DNA of 64,000 nucleotides from Corynebacterium efficiens YS-314 (GTDB lineage: Bacteria > Actinomycetota > Actinomycetes > Mycobacteriales > Mycobacteriaceae). Numbering within the stretch: the stretch's first letter is position 1; each line of letters opens with the position of its first letter. Positions 56,536 through 64,000 of the stretch are shown piece by piece. The translations under genes were made by a program, and so were the position numbers. Under the pieces are notes generated by a model that worked only from the letters and a program-made list of their open reading frames with translations, had not been told where the DNA came from and did no database searches. The stretch is taken from NCBI RefSeq assembly GCF_000011305.1, contig NC_004369.1, positions 2,232,001 to 2,296,000 on the forward strand, written 5' to 3'.

Positions 56536-56682
56536 ACCACGGACATCGGTGGGGCCAGCGGGGCTACACACTCAAAGTGCTGTTAATGCAGGTCAAAGCA
56601 CCAAACACAGGCAACCCAACCCAGCCTGTACGCAATGTGTACGCAAACACACCACGCAACCACCAGGGAAAGGACAACCCCA

Positions 56683-56841
56683 ATGCGAGCACCAACCCCC
56701 AACCCACACCCCGTAGGCACACCAGAATGGGCCGCGCATGAAGATGCATGGTTCCGTGAGTTCCATTCCTCTGGAGAGCTCCACACCCTCATGGCCACCA
56801 TCTCCCACGTCGGTGCCCTCCACGACCAGGCAGGGGCGTAA
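56683..56841 (+). CDS. Small hypothetical element protein (52 aa)
   Basis: GGGAAAGGA lies before the ATG. The protein begins MRAPTPNPHPVGTPEW and contains His-rich WFREFHSSGELHTLM. It overlaps nothing and is 3 nt from the next start, so it is the first gene of a three-gene small operon. Family unknown. Confidence 0.55.
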   Translation: MRAPTPNPHPVGTPEWAAHEDAWFREFHSSGELHTLMATISHVGALHDQAGA

Positions 56842-56844
56842 CCC

Positions 56845-57066
56845 ATGACCACCACACACCAGCCCACCCCGGCGCGCCGGGAACACCAGCACCAGGGCCC
56901 CAAGCTGCCCAAGCTCTCCCACCTCGTTAAGTACGTCGATGTAGACGGCACCGTCACCACCATGTGCGGCAAACAGTGGAAAGACACCCTAACGGTCGCT
57001 GGATCCACCCACACACCCTGTGCTGCCTGCCACGCGGCTAAGCATCTCTATGAGGTCATGCCATGA
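56845..57066 (+). CDS. DUF3039-like small Zn-binding protein (73 aa)
   Basis: It contains HLVKYVDVDGTVTTMCGKQW and later CAACHAAKHLYE, the H/C...CxxC arrangement of DUF3039, a family common in actinobacteria and their phages. It probably binds zinc. It overlaps the following gene by 4 nt (ATGA). Confidence 0.68.
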   Translation: MTTTHQPTPARREHQHQGPKLPKLSHLVKYVDVDGTVTTMCGKQWKDTLTVAGSTHTPCAACHAAKHLYEVMP

Positions 57067-57434
57067 CACTGCCCCGAGACGATCAACCAGACACCTACAC
57101 CGGCATCTGGAACCGGGTGCAGATCACCCACGTGGTGCCGGACTCCAGCCGTGGGGTGATGCATCTTGTCATGCCCAAGGACACGGTGCGTACCTTTTGC
57201 ACCACCACCAACCCGGTGTGGGTATGCACCACCCGTAGGCCCGAGACCATCGGCGCGTACATCCAAGGCAGGGCAGATAAATGGCGGCTGCACGGCGGGC
57301 CCATCCTCACCCCCTGCCCCGAGTGCTTAACGTTGGCGGCGGTGGAGGCGGAAATGAGGGGGCAGAATAAGTACCCCATCCAACGCCTGTTAGACGGGTT
57401 GGCACGCACTACCACACCACAGGCGAAGTCTTAA
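57063..57434 (+). CDS. Hypothetical Cys-rich protein (123 aa)
   Basis: It has TFCTTTNPVWVC and, near residue 85, CPECLTL, so a zinc site is plausible. It may be a longer relative of the preceding 73-aa protein. Translationally coupled to it. Function unknown. Confidence 0.62.
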   Translation: MTLPRDDQPDTYTGIWNRVQITHVVPDSSRGVMHLVMPKDTVRTFCTTTNPVWVCTTRRPETIGAYIQGRADKWRLHGGPILTPCPECLTLAAVEAEMRGQNKYPIQRLLDGLARTTTPQAKS

Positions 57435-58180
57435 CCGCTTAGACGGCGTTTCTGACCTGGGGTTATGCAGCCCCGATTACCTCCCCGGCGCGATACTGGC
57501 ACCAGCTCCAGGCGCGCCGGGTTTCTTCATCCCTGCCCGAGCTCCAGGCCCCGCGCACGCGGGGAAGGTATTTTAAAACTTTTAAATAGTCGGTAGTGCC
57601 ACGCCAGGGCCCGCGCGCGGGGAAAGTATTTGAAATTTTCAAAATGTAAATACCGGGTCAGGCCTCGCACCCGCGCACGCGGGGAGCTGAGTGACGATCA
57701 TCGTAACGCAGACCTTAGCTCAGCCCCACGCCTCTTTTGGTGAGGTAACCGAAGATCTTCGTTTATCTGAATGCCCATGAGGGACAGGCAGGCCCGATAG
57801 GTCGGGATCCCTACCTAACAACCCCCGCGTACGTAGTCATGCGTAGCTGGACGCCACCCCACCCCGGGGTGCCGGAAATATCCAGCCCTCCCCACAATTC
57901 ACAACCCCCCCTGCCCGGTAGTGAAAATATCTCTCTGCCGTACGACACCGGGGGTGTGAGCTGGGGATAAACGGGAATTTCCCATATTTCCCCAGGTGCG
58001 TTTTATTTCAGTGCGTACACCATGCCAGACCCTAAGCCACCCGGCGCGTACCAGGCCCCCACCCCGGGGCACTCCCCCACCCCTCCAGGACACCTACAGG
58101 CGGCGGAGAGAGAGGGTCTAACCGTGAGCAAAGAGCGGGGTCAGGAACCCCAACCCCCGGATATTATCGGCGGCGGGTAG
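57435..58180. other. Non-coding structured region of the element
   Basis: About 750 nt with no credible gene. It contains the 60-bp repeats (57551-57684), an imperfect stem GGGGAGCTGAG / CTTAGCTCAGCCCC (57681-57725), and the near-perfect palindrome TAGGTCGGGATCCCTACCTA (57798-57817). It may be a transfer or single-strand origin, an RNA gene or a control region. Confidence 0.55.
57551..57684 (+). repeat. Three 60-bp-spaced hairpin repeats
   Basis: CCGCGC(AC)GCGGGG palindromes begin at 57551, 57611 and 57671, exactly 60 bp apart. After the first two comes an AT-rich inverted repeat (TATTTTAAAACTTTTAAATA at 57569 and a related one at 57628). Such alternating GC hairpins and AT-rich stretches are typical of replication or transfer origins. 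Confidence 0.75.
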
Positions 58181-58555
58181 TTACTGCCCTGCACCGTTGT
58201 TCATCATGGGATCCCACTTGTTGGGCAGGTGAGCATACTTAGTAGGCACCGTGTTATGCCACGCTGGGGTGTTGGTCATACCGTGATAAATGTTCGACTC
58301 CACCAGCGAATCAGGGCGGGTAAAGGCTAGGGAGTCACGTCCCTGGGCCCCATCGTGATAGCGGAACATCCCAGCCCGTATGTTCCCGAGCTCCACCAGG
58401 CGGCGTGTTGCCCGGCGCGCTGCCACATAGTCAGCACGGGTGGGGGCTGGCACGTGTTTGCGAACTACATCAACCACCCAACAGATCTGGTTGGGGGTCA
58501 TGGTCTCCAGCTCTGCCAGTATCCGTTGTTGCCAGATTCCAGGCCCTCTACTCAT
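58181..58555 (-). CDS. Hypothetical element protein (124 aa)
   Basis: It starts MSRGPGIWQQRILAELETMTPNQICWVVDVVRKHV; the helical pattern in the first 75 residues (ILAELETMTPNQICWVV... ADYVAARRATRRLVELG) is like a winged helix-turn-helix, so a regulator is possible. An alternative GTG start lies 9 nt upstream. Low confidence in function. Confidence 0.6.
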   Translation of the reverse strand: MSRGPGIWQQRILAELETMTPNQICWVVDVVRKHVPAPTRADYVAARRATRRLVELGNIRAGMFRYHDGAQGRDSLAFTRPDSLVESNIYHGMTNTPAWHNTVPTKYAHLPNKWDPMMNNGAGQ

Positions 58556-59482
58556 GTTGCCCACCCCATCTGTCTAAGCGTTGCCCTAGGGGTAAACCTA
58601 CCAGGGGCAACACTTAACCAGTGAGGGGAGAATACCCGCGCCGGGTATCCACTGGTCAACCCGTAAGTTTCCCCCACCCTGAAGAAAATAAGGACTCAAG
58701 GCAGGACAGGGGGAGTCCTCTCACGGAACCGTCAATACTTTGCCCACCCCTACACCACTGGAACTTTCCCCCACCCTGAAGAAAGTCCAGACACCAGGAA
58801 ACAATGGGCGGGGTCTAGACCTGCACCCCCTCGGAAAAACAGGCAGGAGTGGTTGCCCGGCACTGTCCCCCCCAGCGTGATGGGACTTTTAGGGCCCGTG
58901 TAAAAAATACCCTGACCGTGATAGCCGGGGAGGGTCAGGGCGGGGCACCCCTCTAAGATTTTCCACCCATCACACCCCCACATAACTAGGTGGGCCCCTG
59001 TTATTTTTCGGATCCAGACGGGGAGAGAGAAACCTGACACATGGCACAGGGGGGAGTCAGTACGGCAGGAACGCTAAGAATACAGGCACCCCTACCACTC
59101 CAGGGCCTCTCCCCCGGCGCGGCGGGTGGTGCTCCCGGGCGCGCCGGGTGCTGGTTGGTCATTTTCGGGAAATTCCCGTTTCTGTCCAGGTGCTCCCGGG
59201 CGCGCCGGGTGCCGGCCTTTTCTGACCGGGTAGGGAGAGAGACACAGGCAGTTCATAACAGGGGGCGATGTGCCAGCATGAGGGGTTGGTATAAAACGCC
59301 TCCCCTGCCCGTGGGCTCTCTGCACCAGTCTTTTTAACCGATCAGTTGGAAAGGCATCTACTCCCCTGCCCCGTGGGGCTCCCGCTTGGGGTGGGGGGTA
59401 ACCCCAGCCCTCGGGCACCATAGTTCGCCCGTTGGTATAGGCGCACGCGGTGTGTACAGGTCTGGGGATCCCCTGCCCCTGC
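58556..59482. other. Non-coding region with direct repeats and hairpins
   Basis: TTTCCCCCACCCTGAAGAAA occurs at 58668-58687 and 58765-58784, 97 bp apart. A stem CCCTGACC / GGTCAGGG is near 58910-58940. A 24-bp GC-rich block with GGCGCGCC is repeated at 59130 and 59190. No gene is supported; short open frames here have no ribosome site or codon bias. Confidence 0.55.
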
Positions 59483-59683: not shown

Positions 59684-59754
59684 GGGTGTGGGGATCCCCT
59701 GCCCGGCGCGACCGTGGGCATGAGCACCAGGGCGCGCCGGGTGGGTTGGGGTGT

Positions 59755-60002
59755 TGGACCTAACTCCAGTTCCCTATAGGGTGTGGTCCAAACGGTCCAA
59801 TGGTCCAATGCAGGTCAGGGCATGTTTACGGCGGTCCAATCGTGGTCCAATCGTGGTCCAACTGGACCGTGGACCTGGGTTGGTGGTCCACCATTGGACC
59901 TGGGTTGGACCGGTATTGGACCATCACATACCCCCGTTGACCTGGGTTGGACCATTGGACCTGTTGGACCACTCTCTCACCCGGTCCACGCCTTGTGGTC
60001 CA
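59755..60002. repeat. Iteron-like array of TGGACC/GGTCCA
   Basis: About 18 copies in 248 bp, first mainly as GGTCCA (59785, 59794, 59802, 59833, 59844, 59855) and then mainly as TGGACC (59863, 59870, 59895, 59906, 59917, 59948, 59956, 59965), with mixed ones between. Groups are spaced 11 bp (59833/59844/59855 and 59895/59906/59917), about one helical turn. The array covers the 3' end of the ATPase gene. It is the likely origin or Rep-binding region. Confidence 0.8.
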
Positions 60003-61345
60003 TGCACCTGTGCCACTGCCCGGGTGCCCTCCCCAGTAACAGTGATAAGCCCCTCTGCCTCCAATGCTTCAAACACCTCGGGCACTAGTTTTCGTAGGTC
60101 ACTCTTAGCGGCGTACCGACACGCGGCCACGTTGACGGTGCCCTCCCCGGCCTCCAGGCGGCGGACAACATGCGAGCGGGCCCGGGCCTCCATTTTCTCC
60201 AGCCGCGCTATCTCTGCCTCCCGTTGGTTCTGAGTGCGTTGCTCTGCCTCCCGGCGCGCCTTGGTAGCCAGTTCACGCCGGACCAACCCAAGGGTGTCTG
60301 TGTGCTTAAGCAACACAACCCCTGCCAGTTCCCAATCCTCTAGGTCCACATCGGTGTGCCCCTCCAGTAGTGCGAGACCACAGGCAATCTTGATCCGCAA
60401 CATAGTGCGGTGCCCCTCCAGGGGGTCAGCGTCCACGTTGAACGCCTGTGAGCTACGCCTACGGTAATCAGCCACCACATAGGTTTTCACGCTCTCGGGG
60501 AGGTCCATCACTGTTTGGTCCCGGGGGGTGGTTAGTTCCACTTTGAGCGGTGGCACGGTCTCGGGGATCCACTGCCCTGTGTCCTCCATCCAGGCAGGCA
60601 ACCACACGTAACGCTGGGGTAGTCCACTGTCCTCATGCTTGAGAATTGCGGGGGCGTTGGCTGGTTGGACCTGGGTAATCATTCCCAGCCGGTAGGTGTG
60701 GGCCTCTACGTTGGACCGGGTATCTGCACTGGAGTTGTTAAACCCAGCCTGCTCCCCGCTCCACATCTTCAACAGGGTAGGCACCACCGTGGATCCGCTA
60801 CGCCCTGCCAACGCATCCAGGTTGGACACCTCGGATTCATTGACCAGGGCGCGGGTGATCCGGGGTGTGGGCAGTTCATCTTTCTTCGGTGCTGGGGGCT
60901 CCATGAACAGCCGTACCAGGCCCTCCCCGGTGCCGCTGTTGATCTCGGGCACGTGCACCGGGAAACCACCGGTAGCGTCCACTATCTCCACCGCATCACG
61001 GGCGGCACTCATGCAGGCACCTTTTCCACCGCCCGAGTTGGCGGTCAGGGCGATAAAGATATTTAGGGATCCATACCCACCGATCAACGGCGGGGTAACC
61101 AACGTGGGTGGGGTGGAGGCGATCACCCGTGCCAGGACACACCCGAGCATTCCCCACGGGTTGACGTTGCGGGAATGAGCAAACCTCATTAGGTGTGCCA
61201 GGCTATCGCGCCGGGTCCATAGGTCATCCGGGTTGGTGGTCTCCACCGGCACCACGCCGGGTGGTACTTCTACCTCCCCGTTGGCGATACGCTCCACCGG
61301 TGGTGGGGCTGGAGGTAGCTCTACATCATGCATGAACGGTGTCAT
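59924..61345 (-). CDS. P-loop ATPase of the element (helicase-like)
   Basis: A 473-aa protein. The Walker A variant NSGGGKGA (about 103-110) lacks the usual Ser/Thr after Lys. Later come QRYVWLPAWMEDTGQW, and a C-terminal, charged winged-helix-like part (about 380-460). It follows the primase-polymerase with a TAATG overlap, so both are made together and should form a replication module. The last residues are encoded inside the iteron array. Similar to DUF3987-like proteins of plasmids; helicase activity is inference. Confidence 0.82.
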   Translation of the reverse strand: MTPFMHDVELPPAPPPVERIANGEVEVPPGVVPVETTNPDDLWTRRDSLAHLMRFAHSRNVNPWGMLGCVLARVIASTPPTLVTPPLIGGYGSLNIFIALTANSGGGKGACMSAARDAVEIVDATGGFPVHVPEINSGTGEGLVRLFMEPPAPKKDELPTPRITRALVNESEVSNLDALAGRSGSTVVPTLLKMWSGEQAGFNNSSADTRSNVEAHTYRLGMITQVQPANAPAILKHEDSGLPQRYVWLPAWMEDTGQWIPETVPPLKVELTTPRDQTVMDLPESVKTYVVADYRRRSSQAFNVDADPLEGHRTMLRIKIACGLALLEGHTDVDLEDWELAGVVLLKHTDTLGLVRRELATKARREAEQRTQNQREAEIARLEKMEARARSHVVRRLEAGEGTVNVAACRYAAKSDLRKLVPEVFEALEAEGLITVTGEGTRAVAQVHGPQGVDRVREWSNRSNGPTQVNGGM

Positions 61346-62226
61346 TACGCTGCCCTCCCCACCGTGTTGGCGGCGCTAGCCAACGTGCGCTGTATTTCCA
61401 TATCCGACAACCCAATGGACTGTGCAGCGGTGGTGAGCTCTGCTGTGAGGTCTAACCCATCCTCCAGGGCCCGGCACGCTGCCCAATGCAACACGTTGTT
61501 ACGCTGCCCCTCCCCGGCCTGCTCCACCGTGGCCACCAGGCCCGCGCCGGGGGACTCCCCGAGCTGTACCCGGCGCGCCTGCACCGGCTTAGGCAGGGGC
61601 TTATAGACGTGGGCACGCAACCAGGTAGGCAACACCACAGGGGTGCACCAGTGGGCAATGAGGTAATGCATTCCGGTGGTGGGGTGAACACTGGGGGGCA
61701 CGACAACATAACCGGTGTGTGTTTTGACGTCCACACCCTCCCCTGCCGTGCCGCGTACGTCCCCCGAGTACGGCAGGGTGAACCAGTAGTGCAGCCCGTG
61801 GGAACCGGTCAGCATCATCAACGTGTCGGGCACCTCCAGGCCCCCGAGCTCCACCCACGTATCCCACCCACCGTTACGGGGATCAATATCTAGCACCACC
61901 ATGCCCTTAGGTGGGGTGGCACCAATGTTCGCGCCGGGCCACTTCTCCCACCACGCCTGTACCTGTGCCAGGTCGGTGGTGAAGTCCTTGAACCCGTTGG
62001 GGGTCAACGGCACTTTGCCGTTCAGGGGCCCTACCTTGAACCCGAGTTGTGCGTACCGGCGTGCGGCGGTTGGTAACCATTGGTTGGTGGGCAGGGTCTC
62101 GGGGGATCCATCCCACTTCAATGGGGTGTTATGTCCGGCAGGGTTGCTACACTGGTGTTGGTTGTCCACCACCCCGAGTAATGCCCCTGCCTGCACCGTG
62201 GGGGCATTAATCATTGCTGCCACCAC
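61345..62226 (-). CDS. Bifunctional primase-polymerase (AEP/Prim-Pol)
   Basis: A 293-aa protein. Motif I VVLDIDPRNGG (D113, D115), motif II GSHGLHYWFTLP (S142, H146) and DVKTHTGYVVVPPSVHPTTG (motif III region) define an archaeo-eukaryotic prim-pol domain at 55-215. The C-terminal part (about 220-293) is a helical primase accessory region. It would prime or replicate the element's DNA. Starts at GTG 62226 or ATG 62214; its 5' end overlaps the upstream gene. Confidence 0.93.
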   Translation of the reverse strand: MVAAMINAPTVQAGALLGVVDNQHQCSNPAGHNTPLKWDGSPETLPTNQWLPTAARRYAQLGFKVGPLNGKVPLTPNGFKDFTTDLAQVQAWWEKWPGANIGATPPKGMVVLDIDPRNGGWDTWVELGGLEVPDTLMMLTGSHGLHYWFTLPYSGDVRGTAGEGVDVKTHTGYVVVPPSVHPTTGMHYLIAHWCTPVVLPTWLRAHVYKPLPKPVQARRVQLGESPGAGLVATVEQAGEGQRNNVLHWAACRALEDGLDLTAELTTAAQSIGLSDMEIQRTLASAANTVGRAA

Positions 62227-62629
62227 CTTGAATGACAGTCAGCCCGGCGCGCCGGGTCTCTGCCTCCATCTCAGGGTGTGGCAGTCCGTTGGGGTGCTCC
62301 AGGCACACACAGGTGAACTCTTTCCCCTTGGGGCCCATCTCACGCTGTGAGTACACAGGCAGGTGATTGGAGTAGTACACCGGGCGCATGATGGAACCAT
62401 CATTCCGACGGTGGTAAACCCCGGTGTCCATAGCCATGGCGGTGACATCGGCGGCAATGCTGTACAGCGCTGCCATGACCTCGTTCAGGGGCCCGGGTAG
62501 GTATTCCTCCCCGTCGATCAGCTCCAGGCCGTAGGTATCTGCCAGGTGCTCGTGTACCCAATCCAGGGTGTTACGCAATGATTCCCGGGTGTGAATGAGG
62601 GCATCACGCGGTGTGTAATCGGCGGGCAT
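62207..62629 (-). CDS. Hypothetical element protein (140 aa)
   Basis: MPADYTPRDALIHTRESLRNTLDWVHEHLADTY... with helices in the first 75 residues and a C-terminal part with CVCLEHPNGLPHPE. Its ATG overlaps the HTH gene stop (TAATG). The junction reads GCAGCGTAATG, identical to the prim-pol/ATPase junction. Possibly a replication accessory or copy-control protein; unknown. Confidence 0.68.
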   Translation of the reverse strand: MPADYTPRDALIHTRESLRNTLDWVHEHLADTYGLELIDGEEYLPGPLNEVMAALYSIAADVTAMAMDTGVYHRRNDGSIMRPVYYSNHLPVYSQREMGPKGKEFTCVCLEHPNGLPHPEMEAETRRAGLTVIQGGGSND

Positions 62630-62850
62630 TACGCTGCACCCCCATCCCACTGGTTGGTGGCACGGGCCTGTATCAGGGCCTCCAGCGACTCCACAGATAC
62701 GCGCATGGAACGGGGTGTGAGGTAGGTAGCCTGTAGTTCTCCAGCGGCCACCAGGCGGCGGATTGTCTTAGTGGAACAATCCACTAGTTCAGCGGCATTA
62801 GCTACGGTGAGCCACTGTTTATGGGTGGTAGGTGAGGTTGTGGCACTCAT
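62629..62850 (-). CDS. HTH protein, excisionase/MerR-like
   Basis: A 73-aa protein with WLTVANAAELVDCSTKTIRRLVAAGEL, the classic excisionase-type winged helix-turn-helix. It probably acts as recombination directionality factor or repressor. It is the first gene of the minus-strand replication operon. Confidence 0.85.
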   Translation of the reverse strand: MSATTSPTTHKQWLTVANAAELVDCSTKTIRRLVAAGELQATYLTPRSMRVSVESLEALIQARATNQWDGGAA

Positions 62851-63809: not shown

Positions 63810-64000
63810 TTACAACCCCTGTCCGTTGTCTAGTGTGCTGCCAATCATCCCCATGAGCTCCTGGGGGCGGGACTGCCTCACGCTGGTGTAAATATGGGTG
63901 ATTGTTGATAGGTCGGTATCCCCGAGCACGCTGCCTATCTCAGCTGGGGTGGCCCCCATCTCAGCCAACCGGGTGGTGATCCACCGCCGGCCACTATGAG
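63810..64000 (-). CDS. Tyrosine recombinase (integrase), C-terminal part
   Basis: Cut off by the window end. The visible 62 codons read HSGRRWITTRLAEMGATPAE... and HIYTSVR, which hold the H-x-x-R pair and the catalytic Tyr of the integrase/XerC family. It marks the element's integration module; the att site should lie beyond this gene. Confidence 0.88.
   Translation of the reverse strand, partial: HSGRRWITTRLAEMGATPAEIGSVLGDTDLSTITHIYTSVRQSRPQELMGMIGSTLDNGQGL

Follow-up and report, generated by a model that had tools for sequence, protein, structure and literature searches.

The locus described here can be set against several known systems. Actinobacterial elements shorter than 15 kb have been supposed to be possible satellites or PICIs in the part of PMC10023795 cited here, and the satellites of Streptomyces carry capsid and terminase genes of their own according to the cited sections of PMC10690885. 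For phage lambda, the cited sections of PMC4669245 describe a cosB that is adjacent to cosN and contains three TerS sites, two of which enclose a bend site, and report that re-positioning it harms nicking. For the hairpins treated below, the nearest precedents by analogy are virus-borne mini-CRISPR arrays (PMC6858448) and RNA anti-CRISPRs (PMC10651486), as far as the cited parts of these sources go; about 90% of the viruses that bear solitary repeat units infect hosts with CRISPR-Cas, according to the cited part of PMC10651486.

Our analysis concerns an element of 8.67 kb that begins in the window, by which we mean the whole 64-kb stretch of DNA analysed, and that has a 17-bp att core at both ends, 8669 bp apart. 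Its right end is given in window-equivalent positions. The ORFs of the element were chosen by eye, and its genes other than the following are small ORFs without known function:

56549..56565: attL core, GTGGGGCCAGCGGGGCT, 17 bp
57063..57434, plus strand: small Cys-containing protein of 123 aa, which marks the left operon and is conserved in related elements
59750..59950: TGGACC iteron array, the likely replication origin, with counterparts recognised by eye in relatives
59924..61345, minus strand: DUF3987 protein (PF13148), presumably with a helicase-like replication role
61345..62226, minus strand: Prim-Pol, a bifunctional primase-polymerase (PF09250)
62629..62850, minus strand: small HTH_17 protein, excisionase-like (PF12728)
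63810..64000, continuing to window-equivalent 65096, minus strand: tyrosine integrase (PF00589)
window-equivalent 65218-65234: second copy of the att core, at the 3' end of a tRNA gene (CAT anticodon)

Several properties of satellites are found together here: an integrase, att repeats in a tRNA gene, replication genes of its own (Prim-Pol and DUF3987) and no structural family in ten ORFs. These ten element ORFs, which leave out 56635-56841, were scanned with Pfam and gave no capsid, portal, terminase or relaxase family. Like PICIs and cos-type satellites, the 8.67-kb element sits in a tRNA gene and combines an integrase, an HTH protein, a replication module and cosN-like sites with the lack of a structural family; unlike them, it has a module of Prim-Pol and DUF3987, a degenerate cosN of actinophage type and repeated non-coding modules, and it is known from sequence alone. 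It also differs from the Streptomyces satellites, as described in the cited sections of PMC10690885, in having no capsid or terminase family in the ORFs scanned. Related elements that share the small left-hand protein were found in 9 of the 242 genus genomes and Prim-Pol relatives in 22 of 151, both counts including the own genome, and an element-specific iteron array was seen by eye at the end of the rep operon in all eight related loci that were read.

Two short sequences recur within the family. The 9-mer TGCAGGTCA (TGACCTGCA) is present just inside both ends of the element (56587 and window-equivalent 65161) and in the iteron region (59809), with a further copy of TGCAGGTCA at 66512, outside the element; several relatives have it, or near copies of it, in their iteron regions. 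Directly after the small left-hand gene, the stretch AACGCCTTAAACGGCGATA-TGAACAGGCAAAACG, with variants, is conserved in L038, L053, L054 and L039, and is weaker in the window (after 57434), being attenuator-like by eye.

The non-coding DNA of the relatives contains AACCCGTACA-N12-CTATGCCYTCCGG (also given as AACCCGTACA-N12-CTATGCC), a motif whose spacing is constant and which has a GGGG-CCCC stretch after it. Four contigs in IMG/VR matched it, and in the two whose ORFs were scanned (L068 and L070) the motif lies between an HNH endonuclease gene and a phrog_226 gene, the latter standing directly after the motif or behind a primase-like gene. According to PHROGs, phrog_226 is a minor tail protein; the L068 protein and gene 2 of Juicebox match the Pfam family Terminase_7 (phage terminase small subunit). 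The linear records of the Corynebacterium phages Juicebox and Poushou have a primase-like gene, terS and terL first and HNH last, and by convention such records are taken to start and end at the physical ends of the DNA. Joining the ends of Juicebox yields the motif apart from two differences and puts the cut immediately ahead of ATGCCC, while the joined ends of Poushou give the first half of the motif as far as CCCT/ATG (the slash marking the cut) and then diverge. Because the Juicebox ends rebuild the motif and its gene context is that of HNH, terS and terL, we read it as cosN.

With up to three mismatches, the cosN pattern was found at 41 places in 36 of the 242 genus genomes, against one match for a reversed-pattern control; the own genome has no match within three mismatches. 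A weight matrix was trained on ten distinct sequences (L035, L037, L038, L040, L042, L053, L054 and L067-L070, whose own scores are circular), with the window, L039 and L041 outside the training set, and picked out two sites in the window:

58010..58045, plus strand: cosN-like site 1 (score 16.1), degenerate and followed by a GGGGCACTCCCC stretch
59427..59462, minus strand: cosN-like site 2 (score 21.2), degenerate and followed on that strand by GGGGTTACCCCCC

The next best score in the 64-kb window is 2.4. Nine of ten related loci have scores from 26 to 47, higher than the window sites, and seven of the nine belong to the training set; L043 is without cosN (score -1.6), and later counts omit L036, which nearly duplicates L035. 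The two degenerate sites stand in opposite orientation, 1.4 kb apart, and most relatives have one strong site. The cosN of this copy of the element may have decayed.

The intact motif is common in the relatives, spans the Juicebox ends and adjoins HNH and phrog_226/terS, and for these reasons the family is probably one of cos-carrying Prim-Pol phage satellites, packaged by a helper terminase at a borrowed cosN. We stop at a good level of confidence because the cosN-like sites of this copy are degenerate and fall outside the three-mismatch search. Such an element would excise, replicate from the iteron array and be packaged by the terminase of a helper phage at the borrowed site. A literature search, mostly of open-access texts, gave among its matches nothing on this motif or on Corynebacterium satellites that carry it. 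Other viral contigs (L101, L105, L108, L110, L116, L121 and L134) have cosN-like motifs of the AACCCGTAC type, followed by G/C-rich stretches, close to relatives of the small terminase described above; actinophages may widely have this cos core in common.

The relatives also share a loosely conserved module of about 80-100 nt, in which GGAGAGAGA, CCCTGAAGAAA or CCCGTGTAAAAAA precedes GGGG-GG-GTC. Its candidate copies in the window were picked by eye:

58093..59320, plus strand: candidate copies of the module at about 58105, 58675, 58772, 58886, 59022 and 59234

The 5' part of the module is A/G-rich, and 16 copies aligned from five loci have a mean column identity of 45%. Each element has up to six candidate copies, one of which lies about 85-120 bp before cosN in L035, L038, L040 and L054, and the repeated module is a candidate satellite packaging signal. 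It has no Rfam match in the window and no covariation. Neither the cosN module nor the repeated module shows covariation, and for both a reading as structured RNA was rejected.

Between the stop of the small left-hand gene and 58180, the 746 nt at 57435-58180 contain no ORF of at least 80 aa, in agreement with the gene-free stretch of about 750 nt noted in the preliminary description of this DNA. Within it, GC hairpins and AT-rich dyads alternate:

57549..57564, plus strand: GC hairpin H1, CCCCGCGCACGCGGGG
57569..57588: AT-rich imperfect dyad P1, between H1 and H2
57610..57622, plus strand: GC hairpin H2, CCCGCGCGCGGGG, with a loop 2 nt shorter
57626..57653: AT-rich imperfect dyad P2, between H2 and H3
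57670..57684, plus strand: GC hairpin H3, CCCGCGCACGCGGGG

The left edges (CCCGCG) of the three hairpins are at 57550, 57610 and 57670, which bears out the exact 60-bp steps first reported, and the hairpin centres are 59 and 61 bp apart because H2 is without two loop bases. A similar triple of GC hairpins at steps of 57-63 bp occurs once in the 64-kb window, in none of 2000 dinucleotide shuffles of 57435-58180 and in none of 30 shuffled windows. Over 16 nt that include the loop, H1 and H3 have the same sequence within flanks that differ, which points to sequence-specific recognition; H1 and H2 partly share an AT-rich flank (34 nt at 79%). The related satellite L040 has three hairpins of unrelated sequence (CCCYTTGCCTRCRAGGG) in the same place, at steps of 58 and 61 bp. 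A lack of any conserved step in related elements, which would have spoken against the preliminary description, was therefore not what the comparison gave, since this parallel exists; most related loci have no such hairpins.

These observations bear on whether the array is neutral debris, left by the chance tandem duplication of a GC hairpin. Debris would fit the finding that the hairpin-region DNA has no homologue in 151 genus genomes besides the own genome and no match among phages and plasmids. The shuffles, the sameness of H1 and H3 amid differing flanks and the parallel layout in L040 all count against it, and we consider debris very unlikely; the view of the array as a non-chance feature of a mobile element, separate from the TGGACC array, held up. 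Two repeat classes were also rejected. As to a REP or host-wide repeat, the CCCGCGNNCGCGGGG pattern is found in the own genome only here and in one unrelated palindrome. As to a host CRISPR repeat, the exact 17-mer CCCCGCGCACGCGGGGA is present in 5 of 242 genomes, including the own, once in each and twice in one; outside the window it has five places, and the four inspected by eye are single and protein-coding, three of them being one homologous stretch.

The position of the array invites comparison with packaging sites. Its distance upstream of the 58010 site is 326-461 bp, which places it on the side turned towards terS in phages; with respect to the better-scoring 59462 site, it is on the other (HNH-side) flank. 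The hairpins might be a protein-binding array, with cosB-like sites read by the small terminase of the helper or by a satellite protein and with sequences that track the helper. An array in the same orientation does precede cosN in the window (with the 58010 site as reference), in L040 and in L068. The last of these is a prophage type from IMG/VR (seen again as L290 in genome G129) whose cosN is immediately preceded by two CCCCGC-N4-GCGGGG-like stem-loops with a spacing of 61 bp. The sequence of hairpin and loop is conserved inside each array while the flanks diverge. Moreover, palindrome clusters (two to three dyads, with none of 60 shuffles having as many) were found upstream of cosN in four of the ten Prim-Pol-element loci (the window, L037, L038 and L040) and downstream of it in none; of the five phage loci compared, L068 has its cosN flanked by three dyads on each side.

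Measured against lambda cosB (R3-I1-R2-R1) as given in the cited sections of PMC4669245, the array is similar in its three repeated sites, the AT-rich DNA between them and its place on the terS-side flank of a cosN-like site. It is dissimilar in that lambda has adjacent TerS sites in the arrangement R3, inverted R2, R1, whereas the copies in the window all have one orientation and are too far from the 58010 site, besides being on the wrong flank of the 59462 site. A clearer equivalent of R3-R2-R1, on the description in the same sections, is TGACCTGCA in Juicebox-type corynephages. Relative to cosN its sites are placed at about -154 (>), -67 (<) and -18 (>); Juicebox (L144) and L276 have the complete set, and Poushou (L145), L072-L074, L279 and L291 have one or two of the sites. 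This > < > order, seen in L276, repeats the lambda pattern and looks like a lambda-type cosB on the terS-side flank, which tells against a cosB role for the hairpins. L068 itself has the related TACCAGCA beside cosN by eye, although it is absent from the output of the one-mismatch scan.

How often the hairpins accompany cosN also weighs against such a role. A comparable hairpin pair is absent from 28 of 30 cosN loci in other genomes, a sample that represents 30 of the 41 sites, mixes satellites with prophages and includes low scorers (e.g. L285 and L277) that may be chance matches. On this count the hairpins were rejected as a general cosB, and the array is regarded as an accessory. Six of the ten Prim-Pol loci have no dyad cluster at all, and the relatives carry another repeated module closer to cosN. 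Taken together, a cosB-like function appears rather unlikely for these hairpins.

The folding of the region was considered at the level of RNA, since the hairpins may form a multi-hairpin RNA, as the preliminary description suggested. The z-score of the fold is -2.27 for the plus strand and -0.96 for the minus strand, and the predicted plus-strand fold of 57435-57740 has H1, H3 and P2 as local hairpins, with H2 and P1 pairing elsewhere. Between 56500 and 60000, one promoter-like site was found against 1.0 expected, not at the hairpins, and nine terminator-like sites against 2.6 expected, which include H1 and lack H2 and H3. Tandem terminators, or a structured RNA that trails the small left operon at its 3' end and shields cos and origin from read-through, would accord with the better folding of the plus strand, with the excess of terminator-like sites and with the start of the array 115 nt past a stop codon. 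The L040 region, far more stably folded than its shuffles (z -4.57), offers further support, its last hairpin being followed by TTTT and its two similar dyads differing by a paired C-G to G-C change (by eye). A terminator, however, requires pairing rather than sequence, yet the same loop is kept in H1 and H3; the scan lists neither H2 nor H3, H2 is not local in the predicted fold, and Rfam gave nothing at E <=1. We therefore hold a terminator or trailer function to be unlikely.

The AT-rich palindromes reported between the hairpins fared less well than the hairpins themselves. Imperfect dyads are present there, but when the two AT-rich intervals of the window are treated as RNA "spacers" they fold no better than 300 native CRISPR spacers (sampled from 640), so these palindromes may be little more than AT-rich DNA. 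The same comparison led us to reject, for the window, palindromic "spacers" as a rule. By spacer energy, the interval of L068 and the interval after the last hairpin of L040 fall in the lowest 2%, and the other intervals of L040 do not.

The preliminary description had proposed a single-strand origin or a transfer origin, and a primase site belongs with these proposals. Hairpins serve as primase sites in some plasmids, and the element encodes a Prim-Pol. A transfer origin finds no support, as no relaxase family appeared in the ten element ORFs scanned with Pfam. As for a single-strand origin, the TGGACC array is the better candidate, because iteron arrays end the rep operon in eight related loci (by eye), and just one of these has a regular hairpin array. 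An origin of any of these kinds is, in our assessment, highly improbable.

The array does resemble type I-E CRISPR in stem and period. H1 is an exact I-E stem-loop, CCCCGC-N4-GCGGGG, H3 keeps five of the six pairs and H2 cannot form the stem; the distance from R1 to R3, the first and third units, is 120, which equals twice 61 once the 2 nt that H2 has lost are subtracted. Among the viral loci listed, 104 of 157 CCCCGC-N4-GCGGGG-type pairs at 54-64 bp have a step of exactly 61. I-E-type pairs at 58-63 bp are present in 105 of the 242 genus genomes, and 29 of 30 such genus loci that were read are arrays of three or more pairs, with a period mostly of 61 bp. Judged by their flanks, the window units do not stand out from controls in likeness to native I-E repeats: for R1 and R3, on either strand, a fraction of 0.25-0.80 of 122 controls (counted on both strands) scored as high, and in another flank test 19, 42 and 25 of 50 control hairpins were as good as R1, R2 and R3, respectively. 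Both tests are weakened because some controls may be real solitary repeats. The flanks of L068 lean towards I-E repeats on one strand, with 6 and 8 of the 122 controls as high, and in the other test 9 of 50 controls were as good for both of its units.

The cas context and the possible targets were also searched. The host genome (G000) has no match to Cas6e (PF08798) and no I-E pairs, while Cas6e matches were found in G124 and G129; the latter, with the same prophage type as L068, also has I-E pairs. For two 18-nt spacer cores, the viral contigs gave no exact match. Since its flanks are like those of controls, the stem of H2 is lost, the host has neither Cas6e nor I-E pairs and no spacer match was found, the array was not filed as a CRISPR array. 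The stem of L040 is unlike I-E repeats (all 50 controls did as well), so both arrays could be explained by a function that they have in common and that is not CRISPR; the L040 hairpin was rejected as a genus CRISPR repeat, as no other of the 242 genomes has it within three mismatches. Besides its main array, genome G124, which carries satellite L040, has a second I-E-like array (L330, contig C5; CCACTCCCGCGCGTGCGGGAAAAAC) about 6 kb from a divergent Cas6e match. Among the matches listed, many IMG/VR contigs (L148-L226) have I-E-like repeats at 61 bp in sets of just two or three, in some cases with diverged flanks, and are a possible collection of viral mini-arrays.

Virus-borne mini-CRISPR arrays, to judge from the cited parts of PMC6858448, share with this locus a short, cas-less array that is intergenic in viral or satellite DNA, an I-E-like stem and a period of about 61 bp; the window differs in its non-conserved flanks, in the lack of a spacer match and in a host without a Cas6e match. 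The Racr solitary repeat units, in the cited parts of PMC10651486, likewise combine repeat-like hairpins, an intergenic region of a mobile element and, on the minus strand here, AT-rich DNA directly upstream, whereas the window has three units instead of one, a weak overall similarity to repeats and no cognate Cas found in the host.

Among the readings considered, the single likeliest, which we put forward tentatively, is a worn mini-array of I-E-repeat-like units or a repeat decoy. The hairpins would be the worn stem-loops of a mini-array with an ancestral period of 61 bp, and on the minus strand the AT-rich DNA directly before H2 and H1, promoter-like by eye, could serve as promoters. The likeliest role would be that of a repeat decoy, similar to an RNA anti-CRISPR, or of a former mini-array; a decoy would be useful in those Corynebacterium hosts that have type I-E systems and idle in the present one. 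A more far-reaching form of this proposal, which we find distinctly doubtful, is that small CRISPR-like stem-loop arrays with non-cognate flanks, placed beside a cosN shared by Corynebacterium phages and their Prim-Pol satellites, would serve as array-form RNA decoys against type I-E systems, with packaging site and anti-CRISPR RNA travelling as one cis-acting block.

If the hairpins are CRISPR-like decoys, they would amount to an array-form RNA anti-CRISPR; if instead they bind terminase, they would show how the packaging signal of a satellite tracks its helper. Phage satellites in Actinomycetota seem to have been little tested, and with a cosN motif common to phages and candidate satellites, pairs of helper and satellite in Corynebacterium can be put to a direct test and further satellites can be sought.
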